41,944 nt of DNA, from the IMG/VR virus record IMGVR_UViG_3300009135_000006, positions 1-41,944 of that record; one strand, 5' to 3'. Of this stretch, positions 4,041 to 36,579 are shown piece by piece. The position numbers were made by a program, and so were the translations under genes. This DNA is from a virus. The stretch's first letter is position 1, and each line of letters starts with the position of its first letter. The notes under the pieces were generated by a model that saw only the letters and a list, made by a program, of their open reading frames with translations, did no database searches and was not told the DNA's origin.

Positions 4041-4300
4041 ACATCCATTGCACAGACGGCTGGCTCTTCCATCAGTGGAAGGACAACAAGTGTGAGCGGT
4101 GCGGGATCCCTAGCGGTAGAAACCTGACCGACGTGACATGGGGGGACGACCCGTCCCTCTTTGGAGTGCCCGTGCCAGACCCCCCTGTTGGTCGCTCTGT
4201 CCGACGCGGTTCGGTGCGCCCCCTGCTCCGGCTGGTCCGGGTACACCGCGACGAGGACGATTCATCATCCGAGACTGCTGCAGGTAACCTCGTAAGTTAG
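4037..4300 (+). CDS. Small Cys/His protein, last gene of the left arm
   Basis: 87 aa, ATG 4037 with an ideal ribosome site (GGAGG, 4 bases upstream) and an ATGA overlap with the HAD gene. The first 30 residues carry C5, H3, H12 and a CxxC pair (KCERCGIP), consistent with a small zinc site. The rest, after about residue 45, is Arg/Val-rich and less protein-like. From base 4110 it runs antisense to the 3' end of the opposite-strand gene for 191 bases. Either the two genes truly overlap tail to tail or a frame error lengthens one of them. Confidence 0.6.
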   Translation: MNIHCTDGWLFHQWKDNKCERCGIPSGRNLTDVTWGDDPSLFGVPVPDPPVGRSVRRGSVRPLLRLVRVHRDEDDSSSETAAGNLVS

Positions 4301-6935
4301 GCGGGATCGGAGGTCCACCTCTCGGACCTCCCCTTCCATCGGAAGGAGGTACACCGGGTCCACCTCTCGGATCTACACCGGGTGTTGGACGCACGACGTT
4401 CCGACGCATCATCGGTGTGTTCATCGGAGTCTGCGGTGGTCGTCGTAGGTTTCCGGGCTGTCCTACAGGTTGCATCCCCCATCGTCGGAGCTTGCTCTGC
4501 AGACCGCGAGGCAGTCCACCACCGGGCATCTGACCGGGCATGAGACGTCCACCCGGTGGCATCGCTCTGGGAGGAGGTGCGCCTCTCCATGGCATGCCAC
4601 GTGGCGGCAAGTTCCTCACCGTCGGAGGCACCATGCGTGGCGCAGGTCTGCCCGGTCCAAGAGCCTGTTGCATATCACCGACTTGACCTTGGATGTTGCG
4701 CAAGTGTGCGGGCAATGAACTCTGCCCTGTCGTTGCACCACCACCGTAAGGTTGCGGAGGCATCGCACGAGGATCGAGGCGCGGAGGTACGCCACCCATG
4801 CGAGGCTTCATGGTGCCCGGAACCTGTCGAGGCACACCACCCATTGGAGGCCGACGGAAGAGATGGTTTGCTTGCGCAAGTCCACCGGCTTGATAGTTCT
4901 GGACGTAACCACCATACGCCTGCTCCATCTCTTCCAGCTCGCGCTCGGTGCGTGTCTCCGACGCTTCCTTCTTGCCCAACAGAGATGCAAGCCAACCGAT
5001 CTCTTCTTCTTCCTCTTCAGGAGGAGGTGGTGGAGGCGGATCTTTATGGAAGCGACTCTCCCAGTATCTGTAACTGGCAGTCCCTACCTTGTGAGGGTTC
5101 GGACCCTTACTCAGGTCTTCATGATGACCGGGACGGACTGCGCCCCCTTCTTCGTAACGTCTCACGGTTCCTCCTCCTGCGTACCCACCGGGGGGCACAG
5201 CTAATGATGCTCTAATGCGTTCTTGATGCTGACGGATGGCTTCAGAGAACTCAGTGTCTCTACCTTCCCTGCGTGGTGGTGGCACGTACGGACCCGGTAG
5301 TGTCGTTCCATCTCCACCGTCACCTCCGCCGGGTGGAATAATTCTGGGTGGATCCTCGGGCACACACCGTTGGGCTGGACCAGTACGTCGGAAGCCAGAC
5401 GGGCAGGTCTCGTCCGGGACAGGACCACCACCGGGACCACCACCTCCGCCTCCGCCACGTCCACCACCACCTCCACCTCGGCGACCACGCGGACCACGTC
5501 CACCTCCACGGGGACCTTGGACTTGAGCAGTAGTCGGAGTAGCTCCGTCCTCTGGCTGTAAAATTGTTTGTTGTGGCGTGTAAAGGAGTCCCGTCGCATC
5601 ATCCTTGTAGTAGGTGCCGTCTTCGATGCCTCGCATAATTTTGAGGACATTCCCCAGACCACCTCCCAGAGAACGCCAGAGTTGCTTAAACGATTGGCCT
5701 TCTACTTCACCACCCTCCTGAAAGCTCTGCTCACTACCAGTCAGTCCCGGTGCAAAGCCACGTTGAATGAGGTCACTCATCGGCGCGAGTCCACCTTCGA
5801 ACATACCGGGAGGGGGATTCCCCAACAGCTGCTCTTGATCTTCGATTGACAGCGCATCGAATGCAGCCCTGCTTGCGGCTTCATCATTCATGAAAATTGA
5901 CTCCCCTTCGTTGTTAACGCCAATGCGATTCAACTCTTCCGGTGTCGGCGCTTGGGATTCTTGTGCCTGTTGTTGCAACGCTTTGGTCCACTTATTGCGT
6001 AGCAAGTTAACCTCATGCTGCAGACCAGAGTAATCTCGGATCGAATAACCGCTACCGAAGTCAGCCTGACCGACCTTCTGCATTCTTTGCATTGCACGAA
6101 TCAGCAGGGGCTTAATGAATTGTACCTGCTCGGCACCACTCATCTCTGCCAACCTCGCATCGAGGTTCGTTTCTTTATCTATCGGCGTGCTCTTATCCCA
6201 CGCGTAGTCAATAGCTTCACCTTCTTCGGCACGCCGACGCTGCTGCATGTCGTTAAACATTTGTTCCAGTGCAGGTCCAACCTCCTCGGCTGACCGAGGA
6301 CTGTACTCTCCGGGTGCGGTCTGATAATCCACCTCGCCACCTTCTTGCATACCTGTTGAAATATATGACGCAGGATCTCGACGTATGATCTCTCGTCGGA
6401 AATAATCAACAGGTCCTGCTCCACCTGCAGAGGGAGGACGGTACCCACCAACAGTTTCTGGTGGATAAAACGTGGTGTCCTTGTTGAGACTGGTAGCGTA
6501 CTTCTTACCCTTCTTTCCTTTCGCACCTTGGACACCCTTGCGAGTGGCAGCAGGTGTATCTGCGTACCAACCAGCGCGCACCAATGCACGACGCTTGTCT
6601 GGATTCTTAACATTTGTGAGGATCTCATCACCGTAAGCACCACGCTCTTGTTTGCGCTGTGCTTTCTTGCGACGCTTGCGTTCCCCCTTCCCAACTTTGT
6701 GTTCCTGCGTACCTCCCGGTGCCATCAGGTCGTAGAGGGGGAGGCCTTTGTTCCGGCGCGAGCCCCAGTTACCTACCCACGAACTGCCACCGAACGCCAT
6801 GTTAAGTGCGCCCTCTTTGTCAGCATCATGAAACTCACGAGCAACACCCTGCGAAATACCTGCGCGTCTCGCGAAGTCAGGATTGTTAGCAGCTGCTGCC
6901 ATGAATCTGCGTTGTTTGTCTGACGTACTGGGCAT
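4110..6935 (-). CDS. Large disordered virion-associated protein with double-glycine motifs
   Basis: 941 aa from ATG 6935, which overlaps the upstream stop (TAATG) and has GGAGA upstream. Residues 2-40 (SDKQRRFMAAAA...SQGVAREFHDADK) resemble a short domain found on many phage structural and MuF-type proteins. Residues 75-145 are Lys/Arg-rich, 470-510 are nearly pure Gly/Arg, 632-645 are poly-Pro then poly-Glu, and 690-930 are Pro/Gly/Arg-rich. Several FQEGGEV/MFEGGLA/YEEGGAV/YQAGGLA motifs are spread through it. It is the last gene of the virion operon, after the ejection-type proteins. It is probably an internal or ejected, largely unstructured protein that may bind DNA; no enzyme domain was seen. 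Confidence 0.75.
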   Translation of the reverse strand: MPSTSDKQRRFMAAAANNPDFARRAGISQGVAREFHDADKEGALNMAFGGSSWVGNWGSRRNKGLPLYDLMAPGGTQEHKVGKGERKRRKKAQRKQERGAYGDEILTNVKNPDKRRALVRAGWYADTPAATRKGVQGAKGKKGKKYATSLNKDTTFYPPETVGGYRPPSAGGAGPVDYFRREIIRRDPASYISTGMQEGGEVDYQTAPGEYSPRSAEEVGPALEQMFNDMQQRRRAEEGEAIDYAWDKSTPIDKETNLDARLAEMSGAEQVQFIKPLLIRAMQRMQKVGQADFGSGYSIRDYSGLQHEVNLLRNKWTKALQQQAQESQAPTPEELNRIGVNNEGESIFMNDEAASRAAFDALSIEDQEQLLGNPPPGMFEGGLAPMSDLIQRGFAPGLTGSEQSFQEGGEVEGQSFKQLWRSLGGGLGNVLKIMRGIEDGTYYKDDATGLLYTPQQTILQPEDGATPTTAQVQGPRGGGRGPRGRRGGGGGGRGGGGGGGPGGGPVPDETCPSGFRRTGPAQRCVPEDPPRIIPPGGGDGGDGTTLPGPYVPPPRREGRDTEFSEAIRQHQERIRASLAVPPGGYAGGGTVRRYEEGGAVRPGHHEDLSKGPNPHKVGTASYRYWESRFHKDPPPPPPPEEEEEEIGWLASLLGKKEASETRTERELEEMEQAYGGYVQNYQAGGLAQANHLFRRPPMGGVPRQVPGTMKPRMGGVPPRLDPRAMPPQPYGGGATTGQSSLPAHLRNIQGQVGDMQQALGPGRPAPRMVPPTVRNLPPRGMPWRGAPPPRAMPPGGRLMPGQMPGGGLPRGLQSKLRRWGMQPVGQPGNLRRPPQTPMNTPMMRRNVVRPTPGVDPRGGPGVPPSDGRGGPRGGPPIPPNLRGYLQQSRMMNRPRRGVPGPAGAGGAPNRVGQSDQQGGLARALQRGTGRPPMSRRSGFYR
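4309..4331. terminator. Inverted repeat at the convergent gene junction
   Basis: A perfect 8-bp inverted repeat (GGAGGTCC / GGACCTCC, 7-base loop) sits 8 bases after the stop of the last plus-strand gene, the position expected for a terminator. No T-run follows on either strand, and the arms also encode Gly/Pro codons of the minus-strand gene. It could be a factor-assisted or bidirectional terminator, or just a by-product of repetitive codons. Confidence 0.3.
5411..5530 (-). repeat. Low-complexity Gly/Arg tract
   Basis: About 120 bases of CCACC/CCTCC-type sequence encode residues near 469-509 of the 945-codon frame, almost entirely Gly with spaced Arg (RGGGRGPRGRR, then two runs of six and seven Gly). 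On the minus strand it is G-rich, with many short GG runs. It resembles RGG-type RNA/DNA-binding tracts. Slippage here is a risk for both replication and assembly. Confidence 0.7.
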
Positions 6936-7669
6936 TACCGTCTCCACATTTGGGCGAGCCCACCTTCAGCAAAACCGGGTACGTTACCGACACGTAGTGT
7001 ACCGGGACGGGTTATCAACGGCATTGTATCTTCCAATTCCAGAGGATTTAATTCTTCATCTAGTGCTGGTGCACCTGCTGCTATGCCACCTGCGATAGCG
7101 CCACCAGTTCCTCCGAGACCTCCTGCAAACGTGGATGCTGCCGGTATCAATGATGAGCCAGCTATTGCTCCCGTTGTTGTTCCAGCTCCTGCCCCACCAG
7201 CAGCACCACCGACTGCACCTGCACCGGGAGCGAGTGCACCGAGTGCTCCACCTGCGTAGATGGATGCAATCGTTGCAGCTACCTGATGCGCAGTTGCTGC
7301 GTTCTTCGCAGCGCGTGGGTCACCACCCTGTGCAATGTAGTCTGCGTATCGTTGCGAAGTTGGACCACCCATCTGGTTCACAAGCGGATCGAGATTCTGA
7401 CCAGTGAGTACGTTACCGATCTTCGTACCGAGTGGGTCAACCATGGGCACCGGAGAAAGTAATCGCGCTGGATTTTCTCTGAGCTGTCGCCACATATCTT
7501 TGAAGTGCCACTTCTCAAAGTCGTAACCGAGAGCTTCCTTGACCTTGCCAGTCAGTTTCTCTTCATGACCGAACGGATCCTCAGGATCAAACCCGATAGC
7601 CTTCTTGATTGCTTTCTTCGGCTTCTTCGTGATGCCAAGGGGATCAGTAACTTTACTGAGCAGTCCCAT
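6935..7669 (-). CDS. Predicted internal virion/ejection protein with glycine-zipper membrane segment
   Basis: 244 aa, TAATG-coupled to the small terminase gene. Residues 1-75 are basic/helical (KKPKKAIKKAIGF). Residues 130-200 are a long Gly/Ala hydrophobic stretch (ASIYAGGALGALAPGAGAVG, then GGLGGTGGAIAGGIAAG), typical of proteins that insert in the host membrane during DNA ejection. The extreme C-terminus is GFAEGGLAQMWRR, carrying the same double-glycine motif as its neighbours. No homologous family could be named, and the ejection role is inferred from composition and position. Confidence 0.7.
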   Translation of the reverse strand: MGLLSKVTDPLGITKKPKKAIKKAIGFDPEDPFGHEEKLTGKVKEALGYDFEKWHFKDMWRQLRENPARLLSPVPMVDPLGTKIGNVLTGQNLDPLVNQMGGPTSQRYADYIAQGGDPRAAKNAATAHQVAATIASIYAGGALGALAPGAGAVGGAAGGAGAGTTTGAIAGSSLIPAASTFAGGLGGTGGAIAGGIAAGAPALDEELNPLELEDTMPLITRPGTLRVGNVPGFAEGGLAQMWRR

Positions 7670-8232
7670 TAGTCTTCCACCTCTCCGGTGCGCCCGTCGA
7701 TCACTGCGTTGTCGGGCTTCGGTTGAATCAGTGACAGGATGGACGACATGACTTCCATCTTCGTCTCGTCACGCAGGCCAATCGGTGAGTCCGCCTTGCC
7801 GCTGACTTGCGTCTCACGACGGTCGGACCAGTTGTCACGCTGACGGTTGGTCAGCCACAACTTGATCGCTTGCACGTCAGGTTTGTAATGCTTGACGGTG
7901 TCGGCACGGATTACGTCTCCGTCCCACATCATTATCTTTTCTTCGTCGTGCGTGTAACCGACGGCAGTCTGGAACAGTGCATTCAAAACAGCGGCGTCGG
8001 CATCGGTGTAACCTGCTTCGACAGCTTTCTTGAAGTGTGGGTACTGTGCTTTCCAGATACCCATCTGCTTACGACTGATGTCGAACACCTCAGAGATGTC
8101 GTCCTCGTCGAAGCCGTTCATCATGATCGCACGGATCTGATCCGGGTAGTCAGGTAGGAACACACGAGCGCCAGCCTTCATCAGCTGACCATGCGTGTTT
8201 CTCGCCTTGCGATTGATTCTCTTAGCTGCCAT
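7669..8232 (-). CDS. Terminase small subunit-like DNA-binding protein
   Basis: 187 aa. Residues 30-75 form a helix-turn-helix (DQIRAIMMNGFDEDDISEVF, DISRKQMGIWKAQYPHFKKA) followed by EAGYTDADAAVLNALFQTAVGYTH and, at about 115-140, KHYKPDVQAIKLWLTNRQRDNW. That pattern matches terminase small subunits with a homeodomain-like DNA-binding region. The protein would recognise the packaging site and recruit the large terminase. Unusually, the gene lies among ejection-protein genes and not beside the large terminase at 39559-41154. It overlaps both neighbours as TAATG. Confidence 0.75.
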   Translation of the reverse strand: MAAKRINRKARNTHGQLMKAGARVFLPDYPDQIRAIMMNGFDEDDISEVFDISRKQMGIWKAQYPHFKKAVEAGYTDADAAVLNALFQTAVGYTHDEEKIMMWDGDVIRADTVKHYKPDVQAIKLWLTNRQRDNWSDRRETQVSGKADSPIGLRDETKMEVMSSILSLIQPKPDNAVIDGRTGEVED

Positions 8233-10226
8233 TACGGTTGTGGCTGTACCACCTCCTCAAGTGCTCCGGGTGGAGCTGACGGTGCGAGACCGGGACCAAC
8301 AAACGGACTTCCTGAAAGGGGCATCATAGATGCATCTTCTGGCGACCCTGCACCCCCCATCAAGTTCATTGGACTGACTGCTTCCATGGTAGCTCCAGCA
8401 ATTTGACGTAGCGCACCCATGCTACTCTGCGCTGCTGCACCTGTATCCAATCCGGGCACGCGCTCAGGAGTCAACGTGACGTTAGGCATGTCCGCTCCCT
8501 CCTGCAAGTATTGATTACCTACACCGTTCACCAGTGGTCGCAACTCATTCATGATTGCTCGCGTCAGTTCAGGGTTGCCTTTTGCGTAACGCAAACGCAG
8601 AAACAATGCACGTGCCGCTCTGCTCTGCATAGCAGCACCGACCCGACCAGTCATCGCACCTGCGATGGCACCACCCAGTACGTCGAACAGGTAGAGTGCA
8701 CTGCCTGCACCCATGGCTGCTGTCATGCCAGCACCTTCTCCAATGTTACCTGCAGCATCAGTGATGCGAATGAACTCACGTACACCGTCAACGAATGCTC
8801 GGTCCTCCACGTCAGGGAAGATGTCCCGGATAACGTGATCGTGCTCGTCCAAAAATTTCACAAGTACTTTAGGATCTGGGATCGATGCCTGAATCTTGGG
8901 CTTCCACCCTGCACGACGCATTGCATTTGTTATGAACTGCGACTGCATCAGCTGCTGACCTTCAGGCGTCAGCTTGCGAAACAGTTCTTTCGCACGTCCG
9001 GGGAAGTTTTTGTTGAGTACGATGTCAACGAGCTGCTCGTCAATCAAACTGGGATCAGCTGCAGCATCTGCAATTCTTTTCTTCACTATGTCGTCGGTGA
9101 CTTCTGCAGTCTCCTTCGCCATGGCACGTGCCAGCATGTCAGGTGTCGCTGCACCGGGTTCCGCATACTTCTGGTTCTTGCCGAACCATCTCCAGTTACG
9201 GAAGCGCTCGCCCCATGACTTGACAATCTCTTCACCGAGGTCAGTCTCGACGTCTACGCCGAATCGTTTTGCAAGCTGTGACATTGCATCTGCACGATTA
9301 GCTTTCTGTGTGATACGTGCACCTGCAGTACCGAAGACAGGGATACGCTCAGTAACTTTGAGAAAGATATTCATCGCAGGCGTGATGCGTTCCTGCAGTG
9401 CGTCGGATGTCAGAACTCTATAGCCTTGTTTCTTCGCAAAGGCCAAGGCCTGCGTGATGCTTTCCGGCATCAGAGGCATGTCCTTGAGGGGACCGAACCA
9501 CTCTTTCATCTTGGTGCCTGCACCTACCAGTCCGGGCACAATGTATTCACCTGCACCACCGAACGCAGTCGCCAGTGCAACGTCTTCCGGATCGTACTCA
9601 CCACCCGATGCTTCTTGGATATTCTCTGCAACGTGTTGTGTCAGACCTGATGTGGCTGCACCAGTTGCTGCACGCCCAGAGAGTACTTTAGGAAGTGCAG
9701 TGGCTTTTGCTGCGGGTAGGAACTGTCCAACGAGACCGATAGTCTGCAGCACATCCATGCCGCTCATGCCGGGTTTGTTGATGACAGCTTCGTAACCTGT
9801 CTTCAGGTTCTTCGCAACGGGCACACCCTCAGGTGAGACACGTACCTCGATGTGACCGGGGAACGAGTTCTCCAAGATCATGCCCAGCTCCACAGGATCT
9901 GACGTCGTCATCTGCAACCACGCCTGACCGAACTCAGTGCCCATGCGTCGTGACGCGCCCGCTAGTTTGCCCAGCGTACTGTCATCAGCTACGTCTTCAC
10001 CTTGCACACCGAAGCCCTCGATCATGCGAGAGCTGTGCGTCATCTCTGGAAGATTCTCCATGTACTCGGGAGTCAGGTTGGGGTCAACTTTGAAGCGTGC
10101 CTCTGCGGCAGTCTGACCTGCAGTGGCACCGGGCTGGTTCCACCAGTCATCTTCACTTTGAGCCAGCATTGCTGCCACTTCGTCTTCCGAAGCGACTGCA
10201 CCTTCTTCTTCCCACCATTCAGCCAT
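8232..10226 (-). CDS. Large internal virion / DNA ejection protein
   Basis: 664 aa from ATG 10226 with AGGAG upstream. It has an acidic Trp-rich N-terminus (EWWEEEGAV), a mid hydrophobic stretch near 165-190 and another at about 510-545 (AAMGAGSALYLFDVLGGAIA), then ALFLRLRYAKGNPELTRAI. Long amphipathic helices lie between. Hydrophobic patches within a long helical protein are usual for podovirus ejection proteins (functionally like T7 gp16 or P22 gp16/gp20), which form the channel for genome delivery. There is no clear muramidase motif. It is followed directly by the small terminase gene. Confidence 0.72.
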   Translation of the reverse strand: MAEWWEEEGAVASEDEVAAMLAQSEDDWWNQPGATAGQTAAEARFKVDPNLTPEYMENLPEMTHSSRMIEGFGVQGEDVADDSTLGKLAGASRRMGTEFGQAWLQMTTSDPVELGMILENSFPGHIEVRVSPEGVPVAKNLKTGYEAVINKPGMSGMDVLQTIGLVGQFLPAAKATALPKVLSGRAATGAATSGLTQHVAENIQEASGGEYDPEDVALATAFGGAGEYIVPGLVGAGTKMKEWFGPLKDMPLMPESITQALAFAKKQGYRVLTSDALQERITPAMNIFLKVTERIPVFGTAGARITQKANRADAMSQLAKRFGVDVETDLGEEIVKSWGERFRNWRWFGKNQKYAEPGAATPDMLARAMAKETAEVTDDIVKKRIADAAADPSLIDEQLVDIVLNKNFPGRAKELFRKLTPEGQQLMQSQFITNAMRRAGWKPKIQASIPDPKVLVKFLDEHDHVIRDIFPDVEDRAFVDGVREFIRITDAAGNIGEGAGMTAAMGAGSALYLFDVLGGAIAGAMTGRVGAAMQSRAARALFLRLRYAKGNPELTRAIMNELRPLVNGVGNQYLQEGADMPNVTLTPERVPGLDTGAAAQSSMGALRQIAGATMEAVSPMNLMGGAGSPEDASMMPLSGSPFVGPGLAPSAPPGALEEVVQPQP

Positions 10227-10235
10227 TACCTACTC

Positions 10236-11546
10236 CTACTTCACTGTGGTGACTGTGCCGTTAGGCAACCGCACCCATGAACCCACTGCTGGCTTCGGCA
10301 TACCTGCGACAACGTCGATAGGATTGTCCCTACTTGAACCTTTGCCGCCGCTAACCTGTGAACCCGGAGGTACCTGAGACGCTTCAGGTGCATTAGGATC
10401 GATGCCCATAGCGAGCAAGTCACGATCCTGTCCGAAGTCACGTGCTGCTTTGATACCTCGATCACGTCGCAGGTTCATCCTACGGATGCCAGTCTCAAGC
10501 AGCCTACGGTTGACGCCTTCCGGTTTCGATAATGCCGTCTCCAAACTCTCCATGAACTTACGCTCGCCCTCGGAGATCTGACCGGGGAAATGTTTCAGCC
10601 CATCGAGAACTTGTCGGCCCAGTAAGTTACGCAACTCACCAAGATCCGAAACGGTTTCGCCGCTGTCACCCAGCCACTCAGACATGTGCTGCATGAGATT
10701 AACCCAACCACCTGTACCGGGTCCTCCTTCTCCAACACGATCAAGCAGGTAGAGTGCACGTTCGAACGGTTGGATGAGATCATGCGCCTCACGACCCATC
10801 ACGATGTCGTCGTTCGCACGATCTACTGCGCCCTTCGTAATGCCCGTGATCATTTCCAGTTGACCTCGACGCTCAACGTCGAGTGCGTGCATGGCACGTG
10901 GGATGCTACCGTCTGCGCCCCTTTCCTCCAGCCACTCAATGTCCATACCACCTGTGGTGCCATCCTCATTAATTTTGTCGGGATCCCACACTGCTTGACC
11001 ACGTGCAAGCCAATCCGGATTCTCCGGGTGAGTGTAGAGAGCGGGTGCACCGGTAGGTCTGCGAGTGCCGTACTCACCTGTTCGTTGTTTCTCCAACGCT
11101 CGTGCACGCATCAGGTCATCCAGATACTGTGATTCGATGATTCCTTCTTGCGCCAACATGTTAGCTTCTTCACTGATATAGAACTCGTCAGCCTCGCGAG
11201 CAGACTGCACCTCACCACGCAATGCACCTGCAGCCATGCCGATGTTTTCACCGAACGCTCCGGTACGTGTCGGCGCAAGCATACCTTCCGCCAGTGCAAG
11301 CCACCGTGCAGTTTCATCATCTTGCTCACGTTTCTTTCTACGCTCAGCGAGTGCCTGTTGACCTGCACGCAGTCGTTGGATTGCAGCTTCCCGGTTCATG
11401 CGAGCCAACTCTTGAATGCCACCCGGAGGTGGATCCGTAGCAGTGATCGACATGGGTGCCAGATCCAGAGTATCAGTCTCCATAACCTCTTCCAGAGGAT
11501 CAGGAACCGCTACCTCAGCTAGTCCACCTTCTTGAAATCTCTGCAT
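10236..11546 (-). CDS. Predicted internal virion protein (N-terminal EGG motif)
   Basis: 436 aa, mainly helical and charged (RLRAGQQALAERRKKREQDD, and EADEFYISEEANMLAQEGI), with a region around 205-330 that looks like a globular helical domain. The protein begins MQRFQEGGLAEV, so the double-glycine motif occupies the extreme N-terminus. The C-terminus (VGSWVRLPNGTVTTVK) is a short beta hairpin of the kind that caps some phage virion proteins. It lies 3 bases after the previous gene. The ejection-complex role is inferred from position in the block. Confidence 0.68.
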   Translation of the reverse strand: MQRFQEGGLAEVAVPDPLEEVMETDTLDLAPMSITATDPPPGGIQELARMNREAAIQRLRAGQQALAERRKKREQDDETARWLALAEGMLAPTRTGAFGENIGMAAGALRGEVQSAREADEFYISEEANMLAQEGIIESQYLDDLMRARALEKQRTGEYGTRRPTGAPALYTHPENPDWLARGQAVWDPDKINEDGTTGGMDIEWLEERGADGSIPRAMHALDVERRGQLEMITGITKGAVDRANDDIVMGREAHDLIQPFERALYLLDRVGEGGPGTGGWVNLMQHMSEWLGDSGETVSDLGELRNLLGRQVLDGLKHFPGQISEGERKFMESLETALSKPEGVNRRLLETGIRRMNLRRDRGIKAARDFGQDRDLLAMGIDPNAPEASQVPPGSQVSGGKGSSRDNPIDVVAGMPKPAVGSWVRLPNGTVTTVK

Positions 11547-11549
11547 AAC

Positions 11550-12863
11550 TCAGTCCTGTTTCTCGTCTCGCCAATTTTTCTGACGACCCGTCGATTCGCT
11601 GTTGTTCACAAGCAGCTTGCCTCGACTTACTCCGACACTGTCGCCGACATCAGGGTAGCCCCACTTGCCCATCCACCTATTGAAGCTCGGAAATCTATTA
11701 GCAATCCCTGATCGGATACGGTCGAGTACCTGTCCTCCGAAGGCGTACTGTGCAAGCCCGCCCTCAGCGTATCCTTTTGGGGACGCATACCCACCCTCCG
11801 CATAGTTACTTACGTCTTCGTAATCACCTTCAATGTAACCACCTTCCGCTGTCTCCCGTGGATTCATTCCACGAAACACACCGTAGGCACCGACAATCTG
11901 CGACAACGGTGACGGCTGGTATACAGCCGCTGGTCCAACGTCTGTGCGGCTGACCATCCTGTCCATCGGCAGACCACGAACGATGTTGCTCATGAATCCG
12001 AGTCGGTCGAACGGCAGGTTGCGCTGTTCGAGGAAGTCTTGGTACGCCAGATCCAGACTGCGTTGATCCAGTGCTTGTCGCTGCGCACCGATGCCTTCCA
12101 TCGCTGCAGCATCTGTGAGACCCATGCGTTGAGCTTCTGAACCCAGCATGCCAAGACCTTCGGCACCTCGGTACATGCTCGCTGCACCAGCTTCTTCGAG
12201 AGCACCGACGATGCGAGCCATCTCGGCCTGTCGTGTCTGGTCCCCTGCAAAAATGTCTGCGCCTTGACCGTACGCTCCATGAAGTGCTTCGAGCCGCTGG
12301 GCTTCGAGGCCTTCCTGAATGTCGCGTGCACCACTGGTAGCAATGTCTTGCATCGAGCCAGTGCCTCCACGGGAGCCATACTGACCTGCGCCACCAAACA
12401 TCCCAGAAATTCTGGGCATAAATTCTTCTTCCAGTGTCCGGGTAGCCAGCGCTTCCTGTCGGTCGAGTACGTTCCCGATGTAAGGGCTCATGTACTCACC
12501 GGCTACGCCTTCGTCGGTCCACTGTCGTGACCCTGCTTGGACGAAGGGAGATGCTGCGCGTCCAATGTTCGCAGCGCGACTGAGACCACCACCGTAACCA
12601 GCAGCTGCCCCTTCGAGGTACGGCATGTACGAACCCATCTGTGCTTCGGTCATGCCGAACGCAGCCTGCTGCTCGGGCGTGAAGCCAGCAACTCTTGGAC
12701 CACCGTATGGAATGTACGGCTCCGCTGCTGCTGCATTCGCTCGTGCGATCAGTCCCTGTGTGTAGTCCGACATCCACTTGGGGATGTTCTCCACCGTCTG
12801 TCCGTAAGTAGTGACAGATGCGGGGGGCTTACCCTCAAATAGGAAGTCTGTATTGCTAGGCAT
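11550..12863 (-). CDS. Predicted internal virion protein with clustered EGG motifs
   Basis: 437 aa, TAATG-coupled to the previous gene. The N-terminal part (PYIPYGGPRVAGFTPEQQAA) resembles a phage virion family with a PY-GGP-R-VAGFTP-Q motif. The middle (residues 90-290) is Ala/Gly/Gln-rich helical repeats. Residues 339-379 hold four double-glycine motifs in 41 residues: AEGGYI, YAEGGYA, YAEGGLA and YAFGGQV. The C-terminus is basic with Trp. No enzyme motif was found, and the function is inferred only from its ejection-block setting. Confidence 0.7.
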   Translation of the reverse strand: MPSNTDFLFEGKPPASVTTYGQTVENIPKWMSDYTQGLIARANAAAAEPYIPYGGPRVAGFTPEQQAAFGMTEAQMGSYMPYLEGAAAGYGGGLSRAANIGRAASPFVQAGSRQWTDEGVAGEYMSPYIGNVLDRQEALATRTLEEEFMPRISGMFGGAGQYGSRGGTGSMQDIATSGARDIQEGLEAQRLEALHGAYGQGADIFAGDQTRQAEMARIVGALEEAGAASMYRGAEGLGMLGSEAQRMGLTDAAAMEGIGAQRQALDQRSLDLAYQDFLEQRNLPFDRLGFMSNIVRGLPMDRMVSRTDVGPAAVYQPSPLSQIVGAYGVFRGMNPRETAEGGYIEGDYEDVSNYAEGGYASPKGYAEGGLAQYAFGGQVLDRIRSGIANRFPSFNRWMGKWGYPDVGDSVGVSRGKLLVNNSESTGRQKNWRDEKQD

Positions 12864-14797
12864 TACGCTCTCCCTGCCGCTGCTCTGAGCCTCGGCATGT
12901 AACTCTCAGGCGACTTGGCCTTATGGCTGAAGCCACCCTTGCTCAAGTTCTTCGCCTTGTGTCTGCGCATGTTCTGACGCATCTCATCCAACCGTTCCGC
13001 TCCCGCTTTACCGGATCCGTCACCCAAGAGTGCCACTGTTTCAGCGTCTATGACGTACTCACCGTCGCTCAGTCGCGCCGGGATGTCGTCGGACCTACCT
13101 GTGCCCGGTCCCTGTGTGAAGCCGCCAGAAGCGCTCACGTTGGGGCTGATGCGAGGTACGTCGGCGTTCTGCTCGAAGAAATTAGCTCCTCCCATGGCGA
13201 AGCCTGTGCCTTGCCCAAGCTGTTGCGGAGGTTCCCACGTGCGAGTTGCGGTGTTGATTGTATAGCCAGCTGCCTGCAGCTGCCCTTCTGAACCGGGGAA
13301 CAGACCCACTGGAACCGGCTGACCAGCTGCGATCATGCCTGCCACTCCAGCAGTCCCACCTAGTCCACCGGCTGGTCCCACAGTTGGCGTACCCACCTCT
13401 CCGGCGAAAGGATCTGGTGTGATGAACAGACTCTCAGCAGATTGAGGTGCACCTCTCTGCCCGTAGGACCAGTACTGACTGGGATCCGTAGGTCCAATGA
13501 ACTGACGTTGGCTCTCGTAAACAGGCAACCGCTCCAGCATGTGCGGTGGGATCGGAGGCGGCTCGCCTTCTTCGTACTCACCACCACCCAGTGCGCCCAT
13601 GCCTGCCATCAGTGGCAGTCCGTACTTCATGAGCATGTCTTCCTGTCCACCTGTAGCAGGTGCAGGAGCAGACGTAGTCGCTGGTGCTGCAGCAGCCTCG
13701 GCAGCTCCCGGAGGAGTAGCCCCATACCCAGAAACCTCAGCGAATGGATCCGGAGGTGCCAGCGCTGGATCTACCGGACTCATCAGCGGATCGATAGGTG
13801 GTTGCTTCGCACCTCCACCGAGGGTGATCAGATCTTGCGGGGGTTCAGCTACTGGCGACATTGAACCAGCTTCGACTGGTGCACGCGCCAAGATGCCACC
13901 GGCACCCGGATCTTCGAGGCCGAAGACGTTCTGTCCCTTCTCAACGATGCCTTCCATCGTGGGCTGCATCATCTGAGTGAGCGCGCCTGACATGGCACCG
14001 GAAGCGAAGTCACCACCGGTCAGTTCAGCACCGGCACCGCTCGCCAGACTGGATCCGACGATGGCTGCAGTACTGTCGGACAGACCCGGAGCAATATCTT
14101 TCACGAAGCCGCCTGCCACGTCGCCCAGACCTCCAGAGATAGCACCAGTCATTGCGCCCTGCATGAAGTCACCACCTCCAGCTGCGGACATGCCGCCCCG
14201 GAGCAGTGCGTTACCTACAATACTTGCCCCGGCTCCTGACACACCCGGTATCAGGTTGCCGACCCACGCACCCAGTCCGGGTGCAAAAATGCTCAGTGCA
14301 ATTGGAGCAACGACTTGGAAGATCTTGGAACTGAAGACTTTCTTCACTGCCTTCTTCACCTTCTTCCAGATCTTGGAGAAGAATCCGTACTCGGGCATAC
14401 CGGTGTTCGGGTTGATGTCGGCCTTGCCCCACATTCCTTCGAGAATTCCCAGCTCTTCTGGCGTCATGTGCACCATCATCGAGTCACCACCACGCCCACC
14501 TCGGCGTGTCGTCTCCGCAGCTTGCGCCAGACCCCCTTCGGCCTTATCGACGTAGCCACCGATTTCGTAAAGCTTCACCTGCTTGGTCTCTTCTGGCTTG
14601 ACGCCAGCTTTCTTCAGCAGTTCACCTGCAGCGAATGAGTACAGCAACTCGGGACCACCGGGTACGGACTCGATCAGCTCCGCAGCATCAACAACCTCTT
14701 GGTCGCCACCCTGCTCAACCAGCATGGATGCGAGGCCTCGTCTTGCACGGATGCCTTCAGCAGCTGTCGGTCCTCTGGAAGTATTTTGTTTAGCCAT
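12863..14797 (-). CDS. Internal virion / ejection protein with conserved C-terminal domain
   Basis: 644 aa. Residues 77-92 contain EIGGYV and KAEGGLAQ. Residues 135-160 are Lys-rich amphipathic (KIWKKVKKAVKKVFSSKIFQ), followed by a long Gly/Ala hydrophobic region to about 270 with two similar units (GDFMQGAMTGAISGG and GDFASGAMSGALTQM), well suited to membrane insertion. Residues 340-400 are Pro/Ala linkers. The C-terminus has a domain common in podovirus virion proteins: RSDDIPARLSDGEYVIDAET, then ALLGDGS and AGAERLDEMR. This supports a virion protein delivered with the DNA. Confidence 0.78.
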   Translation of the reverse strand: MAKQNTSRGPTAAEGIRARRGLASMLVEQGGDQEVVDAAELIESVPGGPELLYSFAAGELLKKAGVKPEETKQVKLYEIGGYVDKAEGGLAQAAETTRRGGRGGDSMMVHMTPEELGILEGMWGKADINPNTGMPEYGFFSKIWKKVKKAVKKVFSSKIFQVVAPIALSIFAPGLGAWVGNLIPGVSGAGASIVGNALLRGGMSAAGGGDFMQGAMTGAISGGLGDVAGGFVKDIAPGLSDSTAAIVGSSLASGAGAELTGGDFASGAMSGALTQMMQPTMEGIVEKGQNVFGLEDPGAGGILARAPVEAGSMSPVAEPPQDLITLGGGAKQPPIDPLMSPVDPALAPPDPFAEVSGYGATPPGAAEAAAAPATTSAPAPATGGQEDMLMKYGLPLMAGMGALGGGEYEEGEPPPIPPHMLERLPVYESQRQFIGPTDPSQYWSYGQRGAPQSAESLFITPDPFAGEVGTPTVGPAGGLGGTAGVAGMIAAGQPVPVGLFPGSEGQLQAAGYTINTATRTWEPPQQLGQGTGFAMGGANFFEQNADVPRISPNVSASGGFTQGPGTGRSDDIPARLSDGEYVIDAETVALLGDGSGKAGAERLDEMRQNMRRHKAKNLSKGGFSHKAKSPESYMPRLRAAAGRA

Positions 14798-14801
14798 CGC
14801 T

Positions 14802-15071
14802 CTATCCCATAAAATTTGATGTTGAGAACATTCTCATTGCCCAATCTTTCCAGTTGTCGTAGTCCATGGGGTCAGGCACATCTTGCCCCAGTGCATCGAC
14901 ACCCCCAAACACACCCATAGCCCAGCCCTGCCACTGGGATGGATCGTCGAGCCGTTCGTAGTTGGCATCCGATCCGCTTATCTCATCGGAGAAGAAACCC
15001 AGCTCGCCAGTCATGCGGTCAGCCCACTGGATCACCTCGTTGTCAGCAAAGCCTCGGGGATCAATGATCAT
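14802..15071 (-). CDS. Small hypothetical virion-operon protein
   Basis: 89 aa, ATGA-coupled to the tail-hub gene. Acidic and Trp/Met-rich, with two similar units: DDPSQWQGWAMGVF near residue 42 and MDYDNWKDWAMRMF near residue 69. This internal similarity suggests a duplicated helical element. No family was recognised. Tight coupling between a tail-hub gene and an ejection gene makes a structural or assembly role likely but unproven. Confidence 0.66.
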   Translation of the reverse strand: MIIDPRGFADNEVIQWADRMTGELGFFSDEISGSDANYERLDDPSQWQGWAMGVFGGVDALGQDVPDPMDYDNWKDWAMRMFSTSNFMG

Positions 15072-16612
15072 GACTCGATCCTTCCGTCTGCCGGTTCGAT
15101 GTGGGCATACGTCTTGCCCATTTCGTAGTTGCCTCCGCCGATGTTCGACTCGAATTTGAAGCTCATCAGCCGACGGATGTCCTTAAATTTAACAGTTTCT
15201 TCGTCACTACTCGAAGGCGTCTCGAATATGGTCTCTGGATCTGAGGTAACGACGTCGGCTTTGGCATTCGCACGACCCTTCACCTCTACCGTCATGTCAC
15301 CTGACTGAACGAAGTCAGGTTCAATGCGTGCAACGCGCAGTGACTTGTCAGCTACCTGCTGATCAAGCAAGGAGAACTCATGCGTCTCGAAGCTCGAACG
15401 GATGGCACTGATGTTACTCAGGCGGATCTTGTCGAACGCTGTCTCGTGCTGCCAGAGTGTACGACCGTTTGCCGTCTCGAAGTTGTCCACCATGAAGGGA
15501 CGTTGGTACACGTCGGCGTAGATGCCAGCAGTGCGTCCCTGATTAGCGTCGTCGTGATCAGGCAACGGAGTGTCGAACCAGTACCCTTCGCGCACGTTGT
15601 AAACGATTGCGTGTGTGCACTCCGTAGCAGTGCCACGTGGGTAGCACCACCACAGCTCACCGTAACGCGGGATCTTAAAGCCGAAACATTTCTGACGTGC
15701 GTTGAAGTTGATGTTGTCGAAGAACCAATTCTGATTCATGTTGTTGGGGATCTCACGTACGACACCGTTGAACATGTACCACCGATCCACACCGGGCCAG
15801 TAGTAGATGCCGTCCATCTCGATCACGCCCTGCGAACTCATGATGGTTATGCCACGAGCAATGATGTCGTACGCGAAGGGAGGGGTAGCACCCGGAGCAA
15901 AGGTCGCACGAATTAAAATGTCGAGACCCCAGAATAGTGCAGCAGGACCCTGACCAGCACCGCGAAGAGGCATCCCCTTCACGATCTTTTGCGTACCAAT
16001 GTTGATAGCGACTGGATCCATGGTTAAGTTGTTCGCTTGCGACTGCACGATGAGTCCTTCGCTGCCATAGGTCCAGATATAAACACCACTCACTACGCAA
16101 CCACCACTGGTTGCTTCTGAACCGTTCCAAAGAGCAGATAGACCAGTCGTGTTAAGTATGCCTGTCGCTTCGATGGATTCGATGTACAGCGTACCGTTGA
16201 TGGAGTTGTCGATGTTCGTTGCGTTCTCTGCAACGTGCGCCACGATCACATGGTTACCGGTGCCGCCAGTGTCAGCGAAGACATCGAACTGCCACAGGTT
16301 ATTGAGATCTGCATTGAAACCTGCAGGCGTGCGATCACTGAACAGGTTGAGCGAACCGTTCGAGACTTGGTACTGGCCGATGGTGTTCGGGTGACCGAGG
16401 TGCAAGTACTGAATGTCATCACTGGAATACGAGTGTATGCCGCGAGTGACTTCAGGCACCGTGTCAGTGACCTGCTGATAGCCACCAATCTTTTTCGGTT
16501 TCCCACGCTGGAACCTGCACCACTCACCATCGAGGTAGTGTTCGCTATCAAAACGCGTCCCGTCTCGTTTGATGCCGGGAGCGGACGCTAACAATGCAGG
16601 TTGTTCAGCCAA
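15068..16612 (-). CDS. Tail hub / packaged-DNA stabilisation protein (P22 gp10-like)
   Basis: 514 aa. The N-terminus (APGIKRDGTRFDSEHYLDGE, WCRFQRGKPKKIGGY) and the middle region (IYYWPGVDRWYMFNGVVREI, PNNMNQNWFFDNINFNARQK, GELWWCYPRGT) match the beta-propeller tail hub family typified by P22 gp10 and nozzle proteins of short-tailed phages, which plug the portal channel and retain packaged DNA. The start is TTG at 16612 with AAAGGA upstream; it fits the usual distance to PGIKRDG and overlaps the previous gene by 8 bases. Confidence 0.82.
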   Translation of the reverse strand: MAEQPALLASAPGIKRDGTRFDSEHYLDGEWCRFQRGKPKKIGGYQQVTDTVPEVTRGIHSYSSDDIQYLHLGHPNTIGQYQVSNGSLNLFSDRTPAGFNADLNNLWQFDVFADTGGTGNHVIVAHVAENATNIDNSINGTLYIESIEATGILNTTGLSALWNGSEATSGGCVVSGVYIWTYGSEGLIVQSQANNLTMDPVAINIGTQKIVKGMPLRGAGQGPAALFWGLDILIRATFAPGATPPFAYDIIARGITIMSSQGVIEMDGIYYWPGVDRWYMFNGVVREIPNNMNQNWFFDNINFNARQKCFGFKIPRYGELWWCYPRGTATECTHAIVYNVREGYWFDTPLPDHDDANQGRTAGIYADVYQRPFMVDNFETANGRTLWQHETAFDKIRLSNISAIRSSFETHEFSLLDQQVADKSLRVARIEPDFVQSGDMTVEVKGRANAKADVVTSDPETIFETPSSSDEETVKFKDIRRLMSFKFESNIGGGNYEMGKTYAHIEPADGRIES

Positions 16613-22289: not shown

Positions 22290-23072
22290 TTAGCTGTCGC
22301 CACTCTTAAATGTTGATGAAATTGAAAAGACGTCGCCTGTCCATGTACCACTCAAAGGATAATTACCCGTTGGCGTATCGACTGCAGTCTCTTCAAATTT
22401 GTAACCACACCCAACGACCATACCCTGATCGAAACCGTTGTCGCCAACATTGATAGTGTCGAGCGCAATAATTCCTTGGTCAGTGTTCGAGACGGTTTCA
22501 CCTGACTGCGCTGCCGCACTCTGCTTGGCAGTCAAGAAACCTTTCACCGTGGCTGCGAACCCCCCCGGTGGACCATTCTCTCGGAACATGCTGTTCACAT
22601 TGTCATTATTGATTTGCGAGTTTTCATTGTCGGATGTGATGTTGGCTAACGTCCCTCCCCACACACTGCCTCCAAAAATTGCACAGCCCAAGAAGATCGG
22701 GAAGTTCTGGCCGAAGATTAAACAATCGTCTTCACTGTCTCCACTCGCAAGGCGCGGCTGGATCCCAACAACAAAACTACTAACGCCACTGTCAAAATGA
22801 ATGATGCCACCCGTCGAACTCCAAACCTGAAACGTTGGCGTCCTGATTGTGCCACTCGACTGACCTGCATAACCCGGACCCGCTGCCCAGAAGGCAAGGA
22901 TCAAGTCACCTGCAATCGCATTGCTGTTGTCTAGCGTACGCTGCGCATTGTTAAGTGAGCTACCAAGCCCAGCGGACAAGCTGCTGTAGCTAGTAAACGT
23001 ATAGCCGAACGATGGGGGTGGCCCACCAGCCACGCCCATAGTGCCAAACGGAAATTGGTTATGACTGCTCAT
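22290..23072 (-). CDS. Beta-rich structural protein, candidate receptor-binding or fibre-tip protein
   Basis: 260 aa from ATG 23072, which overlaps the stop of the fibre gene (ATGA). Gly/Ser/Asn-rich with alternating beta strands (AIAGDLILAFWAAGPGYAGQ, TPTFQVWSSTGGIIHFDSGV, GFDQGMVVGCGYKFEETAVD), like the C-terminal receptor-binding or lectin-type domains found after fibre genes. It has no enzyme motif. Being the next gene after a large fibre, it may be a separate fibre tip or attachment protein; this is inference. Confidence 0.65.
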   Translation of the reverse strand: MSSHNQFPFGTMGVAGGPPPSFGYTFTSYSSLSAGLGSSLNNAQRTLDNSNAIAGDLILAFWAAGPGYAGQSSGTIRTPTFQVWSSTGGIIHFDSGVSSFVVGIQPRLASGDSEDDCLIFGQNFPIFLGCAIFGGSVWGGTLANITSDNENSQINNDNVNSMFRENGPPGGFAATVKGFLTAKQSAAAQSGETVSNTDQGIIALDTINVGDNGFDQGMVVGCGYKFEETAVDTPTGNYPLSGTWTGDVFSISSTFKSGDS

Positions 23073-25252: not shown

Positions 25253-25610
25253 TAGAGGCTTCCTCGTTTCCGTCAATCTCTGACGCTTCCAGCACGCGTA
25301 ACCTGCCATCTTCCGTCGCACGGGGACTGTCACCGAAGGCTTCACGTACACCACCGAGGAAGTTCACGTTTGGATCCGGACCTCCTGTCGTCAGATCCTC
25401 ATCAGGACGATAGAACGGCAACGTGATGCGATCAGCCTGACGCGGTGCAAGACGATACGGATCATAATCATCAAGGTCATCGATGCACACCTTGATACCC
25501 GGACTGTTCGGGTCTGAGTGCAGATCTTCCAAGAAGAACTTGCGCGAGCAACGTTGACAGATGCCAAGCCCGTACGTCGTCTTCCCTGTTGGATCCAAAA
25601 AGATGCTCAT
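25245..25610 (-). CDS. Small virion-operon protein with a Cys motif
   Basis: 121 aa. The N-terminal half (GLGICQRCSRKFFLEDLHSD, PNSPGIKVCIDDLDDYDPYR, LAPRQADRITLPFYRPDEDL) matches a small family found beside adaptor genes in podoviruses, with a CxxC plus a further Cys that may hold zinc. The C-terminal 45 residues are acidic and variable. It begins 2 bases after the adaptor gene and overlaps the fibre start by 8 bases. Function unknown; probably tail or neck assembly. Confidence 0.7.
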   Translation of the reverse strand: MSIFLDPTGKTTYGLGICQRCSRKFFLEDLHSDPNSPGIKVCIDDLDDYDPYRLAPRQADRITLPFYRPDEDLTTGGPDPNVNFLGGVREAFGDSPRATEDGRLRVLEASEIDGNEEASNA

Positions 25611-26799: not shown

Positions 26800-27567
26800 C
26801 TATTTTTTTACGCTGCCACCTCGCGCTTTGTGCACTGCGCCGCCTGTTGCAGACCGAGTAGTGCCGACTGCACGACGCGCCGCACTCGGGTGCAAGTTGA
26901 CCTTCCCACCTTTGGCTTTGACGTTCTTCGGCATGCCCTTTCTCGATGCCGCAGTACCAGCTCTCTCAGGCTTTTTCATATCCTTGCTAGGCTTCAGCAC
27001 CGCACGAGCGCGACGAAGAGCAGCATCAGCCAGTGCGCCACCACCAGAAGAAGCCACACCTTTCATTTTCGACTTCTTGACCTTGCCACCCTTTTTCAGT
27101 CCGGGCGTGAGTCGGCCAGTGCCACCAGCTTCAGCTTCCTGAGCATTGCGAGCATTCTTGCCGCGACGTGCAGGCTGCACACCATGGTCCATTGGATCCT
27201 GCTTGCCGCGTTTGGCTTTGAACTCGCCGGAGGTGTCCTTCACCTGACCACCGTACTTGTAGCCCATCTGCTTGCCATGCGCTTTCAGTTTCTGATGCAC
27301 TGCGCCGCCTTTCATCTTCGGCACTGTGATCGTTACGTCATCGACTGCGATCTCACGCTCCGGACCCATGAAGCCGCCCATGGCTGCGTTCGTTGTGCCC
27401 TTCGCAAGCTTCCGCTTCGTGCATGGCTTGTTACGTTTACCACCCTTCACAGATCCGCCGCGCATGTAGCCCTTAACTTCGGACCTGCCTGCGGAGCCCG
27501 TGAAGCCCTGATCAGCCGGGAAGGAAAAGTCCTTCACGTACTGTAGTCCACCGGTACTTTTCTTCAT
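26800..27567 (-). CDS. Lys/Gly-rich basic virion protein with double-glycine repeats
   Basis: 255 aa, very basic. About nine units of the type x-GG-(S/A/K/Q)-V recur: YMRGGSVKGG, MKGGAVHQK, YKYGGQVKD, KKGGKVKKS, AKGGKVN, TGGAVHK and ARGGSVKK at the C-terminus. They are spaced through otherwise disordered Lys/Arg sequence. Such a protein is likely to bind packaged DNA inside the capsid or to be injected with it. It relates in motif style, but not sequence, to the EGG motifs of the ejection block. It overlaps its upstream neighbour by ATGA. Confidence 0.68.
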   Translation of the reverse strand: MKKSTGGLQYVKDFSFPADQGFTGSAGRSEVKGYMRGGSVKGGKRNKPCTKRKLAKGTTNAAMGGFMGPEREIAVDDVTITVPKMKGGAVHQKLKAHGKQMGYKYGGQVKDTSGEFKAKRGKQDPMDHGVQPARRGKNARNAQEAEAGGTGRLTPGLKKGGKVKKSKMKGVASSGGGALADAALRRARAVLKPSKDMKKPERAGTAASRKGMPKNVKAKGGKVNLHPSAARRAVGTTRSATGGAVHKARGGSVKK

Positions 27568-28073: not shown

Positions 28074-28384
28074 ACCACCACCGATAATTCTGGGTTTGCC
28101 ACGCCTGTCACGACCCGAAAGTCAATCGAATCAGGATCAATCGCTCCTGCTGTCGGATTGAACAGCGTGAAGCGTAATACATTTGTCACCGGCACGAACA
28201 CTTGGAGGATCAGATCATCCAGACTGGTCGCGTCCGTGATCGGTGCAAACGAGATAATCTCCGTGCCCTGCGCAGCCGTAACAGCCACATCAGTGAACAC
28301 GGAGGCATTCGAGCCCACAGACGGAAAGTTAATCGTCGTCTCGAAGACCTGAATGTTCTGAAAGACTGTGTCGAATCTACGCAC
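28070..28384 (-). CDS. Small beta-rich virion-operon protein, GTG start
   Basis: 104 aa. The GTG at 28384 was chosen because GGAGGG lies 6 bases upstream and the start overlaps the stop of the large fibre gene; the longer upstream frame would run far into that gene. The sequence (VRRFDTVFQNIQVFETTINF, ILQVFVPVTNVLRFTLFNPT, IDPDSIDFRVVTG) is beta-rich, like a small fibre-attachment or decoration domain. No family was identified. Confidence 0.66.
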   Translation of the reverse strand: MRRFDTVFQNIQVFETTINFPSVGSNASVFTDVAVTAAQGTEIISFAPITDATSLDDLILQVFVPVTNVLRFTLFNPTAGAIDPDSIDFRVVTGVANPELSVVV

Positions 28385-32518: not shown

Positions 32519-33448
32519 TTAGAGCCCCGGTGTGCCGTACACAGCTCGCGGATCTGTCCAGTTCGGAATGTAACGTTCCGTGGACTTGTACCGCATGCTG
32601 TCAGTCTCGAAGTCACCTTCCATCGACTTCTCCAGCCCGCGACGTTTCATGAGCTGCAGACCACGAGGTGCATCCGTCTGGACCCACCATGCAGTCGTGC
32701 TCGTGATGCGCGACAGGTTGGCCTGACCCTGAGACAGAAGCCCCATGGACAGGATCGGGTTGATGTCATTGTTAGCCGTTCCTGCACGCAGGACAGACTT
32801 CAAGAGGACCTCAGCTTGGAAGACCTGACTCGGACCCGTGACGATCTTCAACGGCTGCAGACGAATCCGCTTACCGTTGTTATCGACCGCATTGCGGATC
32901 TGAATCAGCATCTGCTCCAGTGACGTTTGCGACAGAGCCGCAGCAGTCGTGAGCAGATTCGAGAACACGCCACCAGCCGTTCCACCCGGTGCAATCGGGT
33001 GATTGGTAACGTTGAGCGCTACACCATCACCACCCACGAACGCACCGTTGAAGGCACGGTTCAGGATGTTGGCGCAGAGCGTCTCTTTCGTTTCGATCAT
33101 CGACTGAGCGAGATGCTCAGAGTAGATCCGACCGATACGAATGTGGTCGCCGTCTTCAACCAAGACCTTGGTCAGCGCGAACGCCAAGCCAAAGACCTTG
33201 TAGACGTAGCGCTGAATGAACAGCACGCCGCCAGCGTCGAAGGTCACCGGGGTGCCGTCAGGCATCTCCGGCGCAGCATTGAAACCGAACAGGACTGGCT
33301 CTTCATGGTACGAACGGGGGGTACCCTTTCGATCAGTGAAGACGCCTTTCCACTCGTCGGCACGTTGGTTGTAAATTCCGTCAAAAGTCTCGTTAAGGAT
33401 CGGCTCAACAATTGATCGGAAGTCAGTACTTCTCATTGGCACTGCCAT
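32519..33448 (-). CDS. Major capsid protein (HK97-fold)
   Basis: 309 aa, with AAAGGAG before the start. The order of an N-terminal arm, E-loop-like region (YHEEPVLFGFNAAPEMPDGT), a long spine-helix region (AQSMIETKETLCANILNRAF), the P/A-domain segment (TSLEQMLIQIRNAVDNNGKR) and the C-terminal KIVTGPSQVFQAEVLLKSVL, APRGLQLMKRRGLEKSM fit an HK97-type shell protein. The position after scaffold and before decoration genes agrees. The length is typical of an uncleaved capsid protein; no delta-domain was seen. Confidence 0.85.
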   Translation of the reverse strand: MAVPMRSTDFRSIVEPILNETFDGIYNQRADEWKGVFTDRKGTPRSYHEEPVLFGFNAAPEMPDGTPVTFDAGGVLFIQRYVYKVFGLAFALTKVLVEDGDHIRIGRIYSEHLAQSMIETKETLCANILNRAFNGAFVGGDGVALNVTNHPIAPGGTAGGVFSNLLTTAAALSQTSLEQMLIQIRNAVDNNGKRIRLQPLKIVTGPSQVFQAEVLLKSVLRAGTANNDINPILSMGLLSQGQANLSRITSTTAWWVQTDAPRGLQLMKRRGLEKSMEGDFETDSMRYKSTERYIPNWTDPRAVYGTPGL

Positions 33449-33472
33449 GATTTAACTCCTTTCAGTTGTCAG

Positions 33473-34021: not shown

Positions 34022-34041
34022 TATAGAGCCCTCCGGTTAAG

Positions 34042-34626: not shown

Positions 34627-34628
34627 GA

Positions 34629-35612: not shown

Positions 35613-35622
35613 GCTCTATCTC

Positions 35623-36066: not shown

Positions 36067-36072
36067 AGTCAC

Positions 36073-36270: not shown

Positions 36271-36294
36271 ACTAGCGCTTACCTTATGTAAAAT

Positions 36295-36504
36295 CTAATA
36301 GTTGGGCATTTTGGATGCCGTCGGTCGTCCGCCCGTCGGGCCTCCGGTGTCGCCAGACGACGAAATTTTGCCGCCTTTGCCCATGCCGCCCTTCAGGTTT
36401 ACGTCGCCACCTTTGTTGGCAGTATTGGCTTTGCGCAGGGTGTCACCTGTTGCCAGCGCTTTGTGCTGGTTGATTGCGCCTTTCGGATATTTCTTTTTCA
36501 TCAT
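36295..36504 (-). CDS. Small Lys/Gly-rich protein
   Basis: 69 aa with AGGAGA upstream; either of two consecutive ATG codons could be the start. The sequence is basic and Gly-rich (MMKKKYPKGAINQHKALATG, VNLKGGMGKGGKISSSGD) with no hydrophobic core, so it is probably disordered and nucleic-acid or capsid-associated. It follows a 75-base gap after the portal gene that holds no clear promoter. Confidence 0.65.
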   Translation of the reverse strand: MMKKKYPKGAINQHKALATGDTLRKANTANKGGDVNLKGGMGKGGKISSSGDTGGPTGGRPTASKMPNY

Positions 36505-36579
36505 CTCGTCTCCTGTTAAATTATGGAGTCCTTACGGAACAGTTCTAGCGGTCAAACATCTGCTTCTCGGATCCACTCG

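Follow-up and report, generated by a model that had tools for sequence, protein, structure and literature searches.

A spacing-specific double-glycine motif recurs in unrelated proteins of a phage ejection block and may serve as a docking peptide

The window (the whole stretch of 41,944 nucleotides analysed, from one IMG/VR virus record, IMGVR_UViG_3300009135_000006) carries its late gene block on the minus strand. A preliminary description had reported a short double-glycine (GG) peptide motif in five proteins of this block, with no other sequence shared between them, which raises the question of what such a motif does there. Every copy listed in that description was found in the five proteins, read on the minus strand (Table 1). 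Two boundaries were amended. The protein placed at 4110-6935 contains the copies described and runs to 6947. The four copies placed within 41 residues at 11727-11849 are all present and span approximately 42 residues, as tabulated. AYGGYV is a further copy in the 945-aa protein. As far as was seen, the five proteins have no other sequence in common; the 644-aa protein does contain a known tape-measure element.

Table 1. Positions of motif copies, their carrier proteins and neighbouring genes in the window
Feature	Coordinates	Strand	Remarks
945-aa Pro/Gly/Arg-rich protein	4110..6947	(-)	at least six strict copies; conserved C-terminus DQQGGLARALQRGTGRPPMSRR
Copy MQEGGEV	6330..6350	(-)	in 945-aa protein
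Copy MFEGGLA	5784..5804	(-)	in 945-aa protein
Copy FQEGGEV	5703..5723	(-)	in 945-aa protein
Copies YAGGGTV and YEEGGAV	5136..5183	(-)	in 945-aa protein
Copy YQAGGLA	4875..4895	(-)	in 945-aa protein
C-terminal QQGGLAR	4173..4193	(-)	in 945-aa protein; retained in relatives
244-aa protein	6935..7669	(-)	C-terminal end FAEGGLAQMWRR; motif at 6953-6973
Small terminase	7669..8232	(-)	inside block; motif in no relative; internal negative control
DNA-transfer/transglycosylase-like protein	8232..10226	(-)	PHROG/Pfam; best DNA-transfer match; without motif in window
436-aa protein	10236..11546	(-)	N-terminal tag MQRFQEGGLAEV; motif at 11517-11537
437-aa DNA-ejection-type protein (PHROG 4287)	11550..12863	(-)	four successive copies past helical body
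Copies TAEGGYI, YAEGGYA, YAEGGLA, YAFGGQV	11727..11852	(-)	in 437-aa protein
644-aa protein	12863..14797	(-)	conserved LYEIGGYV-x-KAEGGLA (14525-14569); C-terminal tape-measure-type element
SGGFTQGPGTGRSDDIPARLSDGEYVIDAETVALLGDG element	13010..13135	(-)	common to tape-measure proteins; in 644-aa protein
P22 gp10-like stabilisation/virion structural protein	15068-16612		PHROG/Pfam matches
255-aa Lys/Arg-rich protein	26800..27567	(-)	outside block; six loose copies; densest carrier
69-aa small basic protein	36295..36504	(-)	GG-rich repeats (GKGGKI); adjoins 36580-39213 protein
Large terminase	39559-41154		PHROG/Pfam matches

By coordinates, the block runs from the 945-aa and 244-aa proteins through the small terminase, the DNA-transfer/transglycosylase-like protein and the 436-aa, 437-aa and 644-aa proteins to the gp10-like protein. 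The 244-aa, 945-aa and 436-aa proteins are unknowns by PHROG and Pfam. PHROG matches and gene order lead us to place the five motif carriers, by inference, among the virion or ejected proteins. The gene for the small terminase, within the ejection block, is approximately 31 kb away from that for the large terminase. A GroES-like co-chaperonin is encoded at 35623-36072, between head genes (Pfam Cpn10, 1.2e-8), and an annotated GroES is similarly placed in the HTVC027P and CRP-901 records. Two fibre-region proteins (23069-25354 and 28377-30860) have a common module, VEDEGxP...LxFVGAGVTASGAGxTKTITIPGG, with 39% identity over 149 residues. Residues 5-49 of the 945-aa protein matched PHROG 16759 and two virion structural PHROGs; this 45-aa N-terminal module would be a second short block module common to other phage virion proteins. 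In a relative (L015:10576-12432), one 619-aa ORF matched both the 244-aa and the 945-aa protein, which suggests a fusion of the two genes. Positions 1-69 of the window read as sequencing adapter, with an exact match to AGATGTGTATAAGAGACAG (Nextera mosaic end) at 51-69, preceded by what we take to be Illumina P5/index sequence. The first codons of ORF 53-1321 (MCIRDR) are therefore an artefact.

Enrichment was measured against composition shuffles. The window proteome has 16 occurrences of the strict form [YFM]xxGGx[VAI] against 2.8 expected, and 32 of a loose form against 11.2. Taken singly, the 244-aa, 436-aa and 644-aa proteins did not have significant copy numbers, and relatives were needed because these are three of the five carriers. 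Approximately 40 distinct related IMG/VR contigs were collected by scans with the small terminase, which is motif-free, and with the family of the 437-aa protein; the latter scan started from a protein that has the motif, but its search patterns (VE[NG]IPKW and EPYIPYG) lie elsewhere in the sequence. In these contigs the strict motif was observed 80 times against 6.4 expected in the 945-aa family, 8 against 0.7 in the 244-aa family, 37 against 2.1 in the 436-aa family, 40 against 5.9 in the 437-aa family and 63 against 10.8 in the 644-aa family. The comparison with shuffled sequences thus upheld the motif, at 6-18 times expectation across the five families. At least one copy was present in 23/23, 4/5, 25/29, 23/25 and 30/30 members, in the same order. 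No enrichment was seen in the DNA-transfer family (1 against 3.8), the gp10-like family (3 against 3.2), a fibre (2 against 4.0) or the small terminase (0). One relative (L011) has a DNA-transfer-type protein with an N-terminal KYQEGGEV, placing the motif at a new terminus.

The cleanest test of the motif is a grid of spacings. Across the five families, aromatic/Met-x-x-GG-x-small gave 228 matches, other spacings 14-98 (the two highest match the same GG sites and differ solely on their downstream side), and the reversed motif 53. In 200 distinct copies, position -3 is Y, M or F by definition (Y in 67%), position -2 is Ala (35%) or Gln (32%), position -1 accepts nearly any residue, position +1 is Leu in 35%, and position +2 is Ala (53%) or Val (42%). 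Glu, which had been made part of the motif, precedes GG in 28% of these copies, so that x-E-GG is too narrow and [Y/F/M]-[A/Q]-x-G-G-[L/x]-[A/V] describes the motif better. In the 436-aa family, the N-terminal consensus Y-Q-x-GG-L-A-A persists at a mean whole-alignment identity of approximately 31%; with flanks unconstrained, the site has Y/F in 16/19 members, Gln in 14/19, Leu in 13/19 and Ala in 15/19. The tag is followed by a variable, often acidic linker. Three members (L006, L018 and L025) lack the N-terminal motif, possibly through start choice. Codons for the two glycines match background use in the same genes, which indicates that the peptide and not the DNA is selected.

Placement differs between families. 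Copies are N-terminal in the 436-aa family, confined to the last 90 residues in the 437-aa family (all 40 copies), close to residue 80 and close to the C-terminus in the 644-aa family, and scattered in the 945-aa family. AlphaFold pLDDT was below 50 at the motif stretches, although both models were poor overall (mean pLDDT 48 and 56) and give modest support to the view that these regions are probably disordered. The motif is a real, protein-level feature. Its specific spacing and its terminal, tandem and scattered placement support the first argument against a globular domain and suit a short linear motif. Literature searches returned no description of it; subscription journals and preprints were mostly outside their coverage.

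The densest carrier lies outside the block and had been overlooked. The 255-aa basic protein contains YMRGGSV, KMKGGAV, YKYGGQV, LKKGGKV, KAKGGKV and KARGGSV, and related proteins, found in 14 other contigs, have 2-8 copies each against 0.2-0.9 expected. The 69-aa basic protein is perhaps a further carrier, though the case is weak. In cultured Pelagibacter phage HTVC027P, gp47 is a small basic protein with YKVGGRV and YKKGGSV, gp82, from the block, has a GG-linked module, and gp84 has a near-N-terminal MFRKGGNV. Planktothrix phage Pag-Yong1 has a comparable pair. Caulobacter phage GB2A shares the block; no such basic protein was seen in it, and copies were few. In a handful of phages, then, co-occurrence of the basic protein and block carriers is suggestive. 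The motif was absent from the GB2A orthologue of the 437-aa protein and from the annotated N-terminus of the adjacent gp063c, which occupies the position of the 436-aa gene, so it is not needed in every relative. A PcfJ-like protein of phage DSL-LC04 (L083:1-1222) has FAMGGPV, MADGGLV and FAEGGEV in approximately its first 60 residues.

P-SSP7 and HTVC011P have no motif and HTVC010P has it at chance level, and the motif is therefore not a general podophage property. The proposed clustering in ejection-type proteins is borne out within this phage group, in which five families are enriched. It has to be widened to the basic protein outside the block and to a subset of tape-measure-like proteins, and it does not reach the T7-like phages checked or HTVC010P. 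The bacterial and archaeal genome collection yielded no relative of the 437-aa family. A fold search with the (poor) model of the 437-aa protein gave nothing at E<0.001, and a PDB profile search with its family gave nothing useful.

The most likely of several readings, to which we give a probability of approximately 0.42, is that the motif is a multi-copy docking peptide that gathers ejection proteins onto a common partner. The pattern (short, spacing-specific, selected in the protein, multi-copy and restricted to certain families) reads as that of a short linear binding motif. Each protein bound for head packing and ejection ahead of the DNA would have at least one copy, either terminal or within a stretch that is probably disordered, through which it would bind the partner. 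That partner could be a repeated binding site on a scaffold or portal core, or the basic motif-rich protein itself, and unrelated proteins would thereby be gathered into one assembly. Binding, the identity of the partner and a purpose in incorporation or ejection are all extrapolated from sequence patterns. Support for docking comes from enrichment and near-universal presence in five families together with absence from the terminase, the gp10-like protein and most fibres; from retention of YQxGGLAA at low overall identity; from the specific spacing; from the background-like glycine codons, which point to selection on the peptide; from the multi-copy basic protein of the 14 relatives and the new terminal copy in L011; and from low pLDDT at the motif, in models poor overall. 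Tape-measure-like carriers, if they are tail proteins, would not be packed in the head and would fall outside a role directed purely at the head.

The nearest known parallel is in T4, in which basic, mutually divergent internal proteins share a 10-19 residue N-terminal targeting peptide that binds the core (PMC9026906). As with the T4 peptide (CTS; IPI-III and Alt), a short conserved peptide here occurs on divergent, often basic proteins (YQxGGLAA and four other families) that would be head-internal, and it is N-terminal in the 436-aa family. In contrast to the single T4 propeptide, which is removed by gp21 after Glu, copies here are N-terminal, C-terminal and internal, often successive, and have no conserved Glu and no recognised protease. 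Because copies are C-terminal, internal and successive without a conserved cleavage residue, the motif is not a member of the T4 CTS class and may at most work like one. In P22, ejection proteins have been proposed to dock on the scaffold columns (PMC12005531). The neighbourhood of gp7, gp16 and gp20, which are recruited on scaffold gp8, resembles that of the window (a gp10-like stabiliser and a DNA-transfer protein), and in both cases ejection proteins have to be brought to the procapsid. In the window, the protein with a DNA-transfer PHROG match has no motif, which argues against docking. We are aware of no similar short peptide shared among proteins in P22.

Two rivals remain live. According to the first, which we consider unlikely, the aromatic-GG segments are homotypic stickers that bind each other as beta or kinked sheets, so that the carriers and the basic protein would co-condense with no receptor. 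Adhesive low-complexity segments are known to have such an aromatic and glycine make-up, and the many copies per genome, their low-confidence regions, the tandem array of the 437-aa family and the 2-8 copies in the basic protein would all suit it. The fixed spacing and the preferred GG-L-A-A form look more like recognition at a specific site.

The second, rated a little lower, takes the motif as a local turn or hairpin that begins tape-measure-type modules, is spread by recombination and is kept for folding with no partner. In viral contigs, the exact FAEGGIA pattern was found in at least 120 stretches against 47 for the reversed peptide. Among the matches listed, 68 distinct sites were in an open frame, of which 17 are closely followed by GE-x-GPEAVIPL and 6 by GPGTGxSDxIPA; these downstream elements followed 0/33 reversed-peptide sites and approximately 3% of random positions in the same proteins. 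PHROG annotation was not decisive, because tape-measure matches occurred in both FAEGGIA-bearing and reversed-control proteins, and the downstream-element count is the better comparison. The GG motif is often the leading part of the tape-measure C-terminal elements (GG...GPGTGxSDxIPAxLSxGEFV and GG...GE-GPEAVIPL). The 644-aa protein has the whole GPGTG element, and its residues 547-595 matched tape-measure profiles (PHROG 6090, 3.6e-8; mycobacteriophage Douge gp16, 9e-9); a single-sequence search with this protein found nothing where its profile found Douge. Douge gp16, a tape-measure protein with a solved-structure entry, contains GGFLSGxGTGRSDSM twice, each time after YA-G or YA-N (AGGGF, ANGGF). 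In the cryo-EM model of gp16, residues 1658-1699 alone were assigned, and the GG element lies outside the model (PMC13033339). Against this explanation, most copies in the window stand alone, terminal and module-free, in low-confidence stretches and in proteins that are not tape measures; no GPGTGxSDxIPA element accompanies those in the 945-aa, 244-aa, 436-aa, 437-aa and 255-aa proteins. Tape-measure proteins with PF10145 from bacterial genomes were also not enriched (13 observed against 9.4 expected, in short loci), and FAEGGIA in bacterial genomes was tape-measure-related in 1 of 81 cases. A general tape-measure property is therefore not supported, and the link is limited to some tape-measure-like proteins.

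Proteolytic cutting at the motif, by a virion protease as first suggested or by a prohead protease, is very improbable, whether behind Glu or behind GG. T4-type proteases cut after Glu in L/I-X-E or A-X-E (PMC9026906, PMC5694885); some copies resemble such sites, and two proteins have the motif at a terminus. The residue before GG varies too widely, however, for a cut after Glu to be favoured, and the 437-aa and basic proteins would be broken up if their successive internal copies were cut. Pfam and PHROG scans of 27 of approximately 48 window proteins, including the head genes at 32519-39213, found no prohead protease domain; with few matches and poor coverage, this is weaker evidence. GG itself could possibly form P2-P1 of a cleavage site. 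A double-glycine (C39) leader was rejected, as the carriers are 244-945 aa long, with most of their copies lying internally or C-terminally, and no C39 domain was found in the scanned proteins.

Equally doubtful is contact with the envelope, in which the segments would insert into the host inner membrane after ejection or bind it or a periplasmic factor. Podophage ejection-type and some tape-measure-like proteins both have the motif, and such proteins are thought to line the path of the DNA through the envelope (PMC8402733, PMC13033339). Hydrophobicity at the motif flanks is, however, no higher than elsewhere in the proteins, and copies in the basic protein are flanked by Lys/Arg. A DNA-level repeat or recombination seed, which recurrence of copies in one genome might recall, is effectively ruled out by the glycine codon use, with a third-position match between copies of 0.34 and no shared silent-site sequence seen beyond codon bias.

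A broader extension of the docking reading, improbable at present, is that many phages use a common, uncleaved, multi-copy peptide code on the proteins that accompany their DNA, read by one conserved receptor surface. Stand-alone copies would then lie on podophage ejection proteins and a basic hub, and module-linked copies on some tape-measure proteins. If this were true, injection cargo could be defined by a seven-residue tag. Most environmental podophages have ejection proteins without recognisable homology, and a shared tag would allow such proteins to be found from sequence. It would also account for unrelated proteins joining a single assembly for ejection, and it might offer a route for loading phage heads with foreign proteins, as is done with the T4 targeting peptide. 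An element that is common in marine phage proteins and tape-measure-like proteins, but has had no name, would thereby become open to testing.
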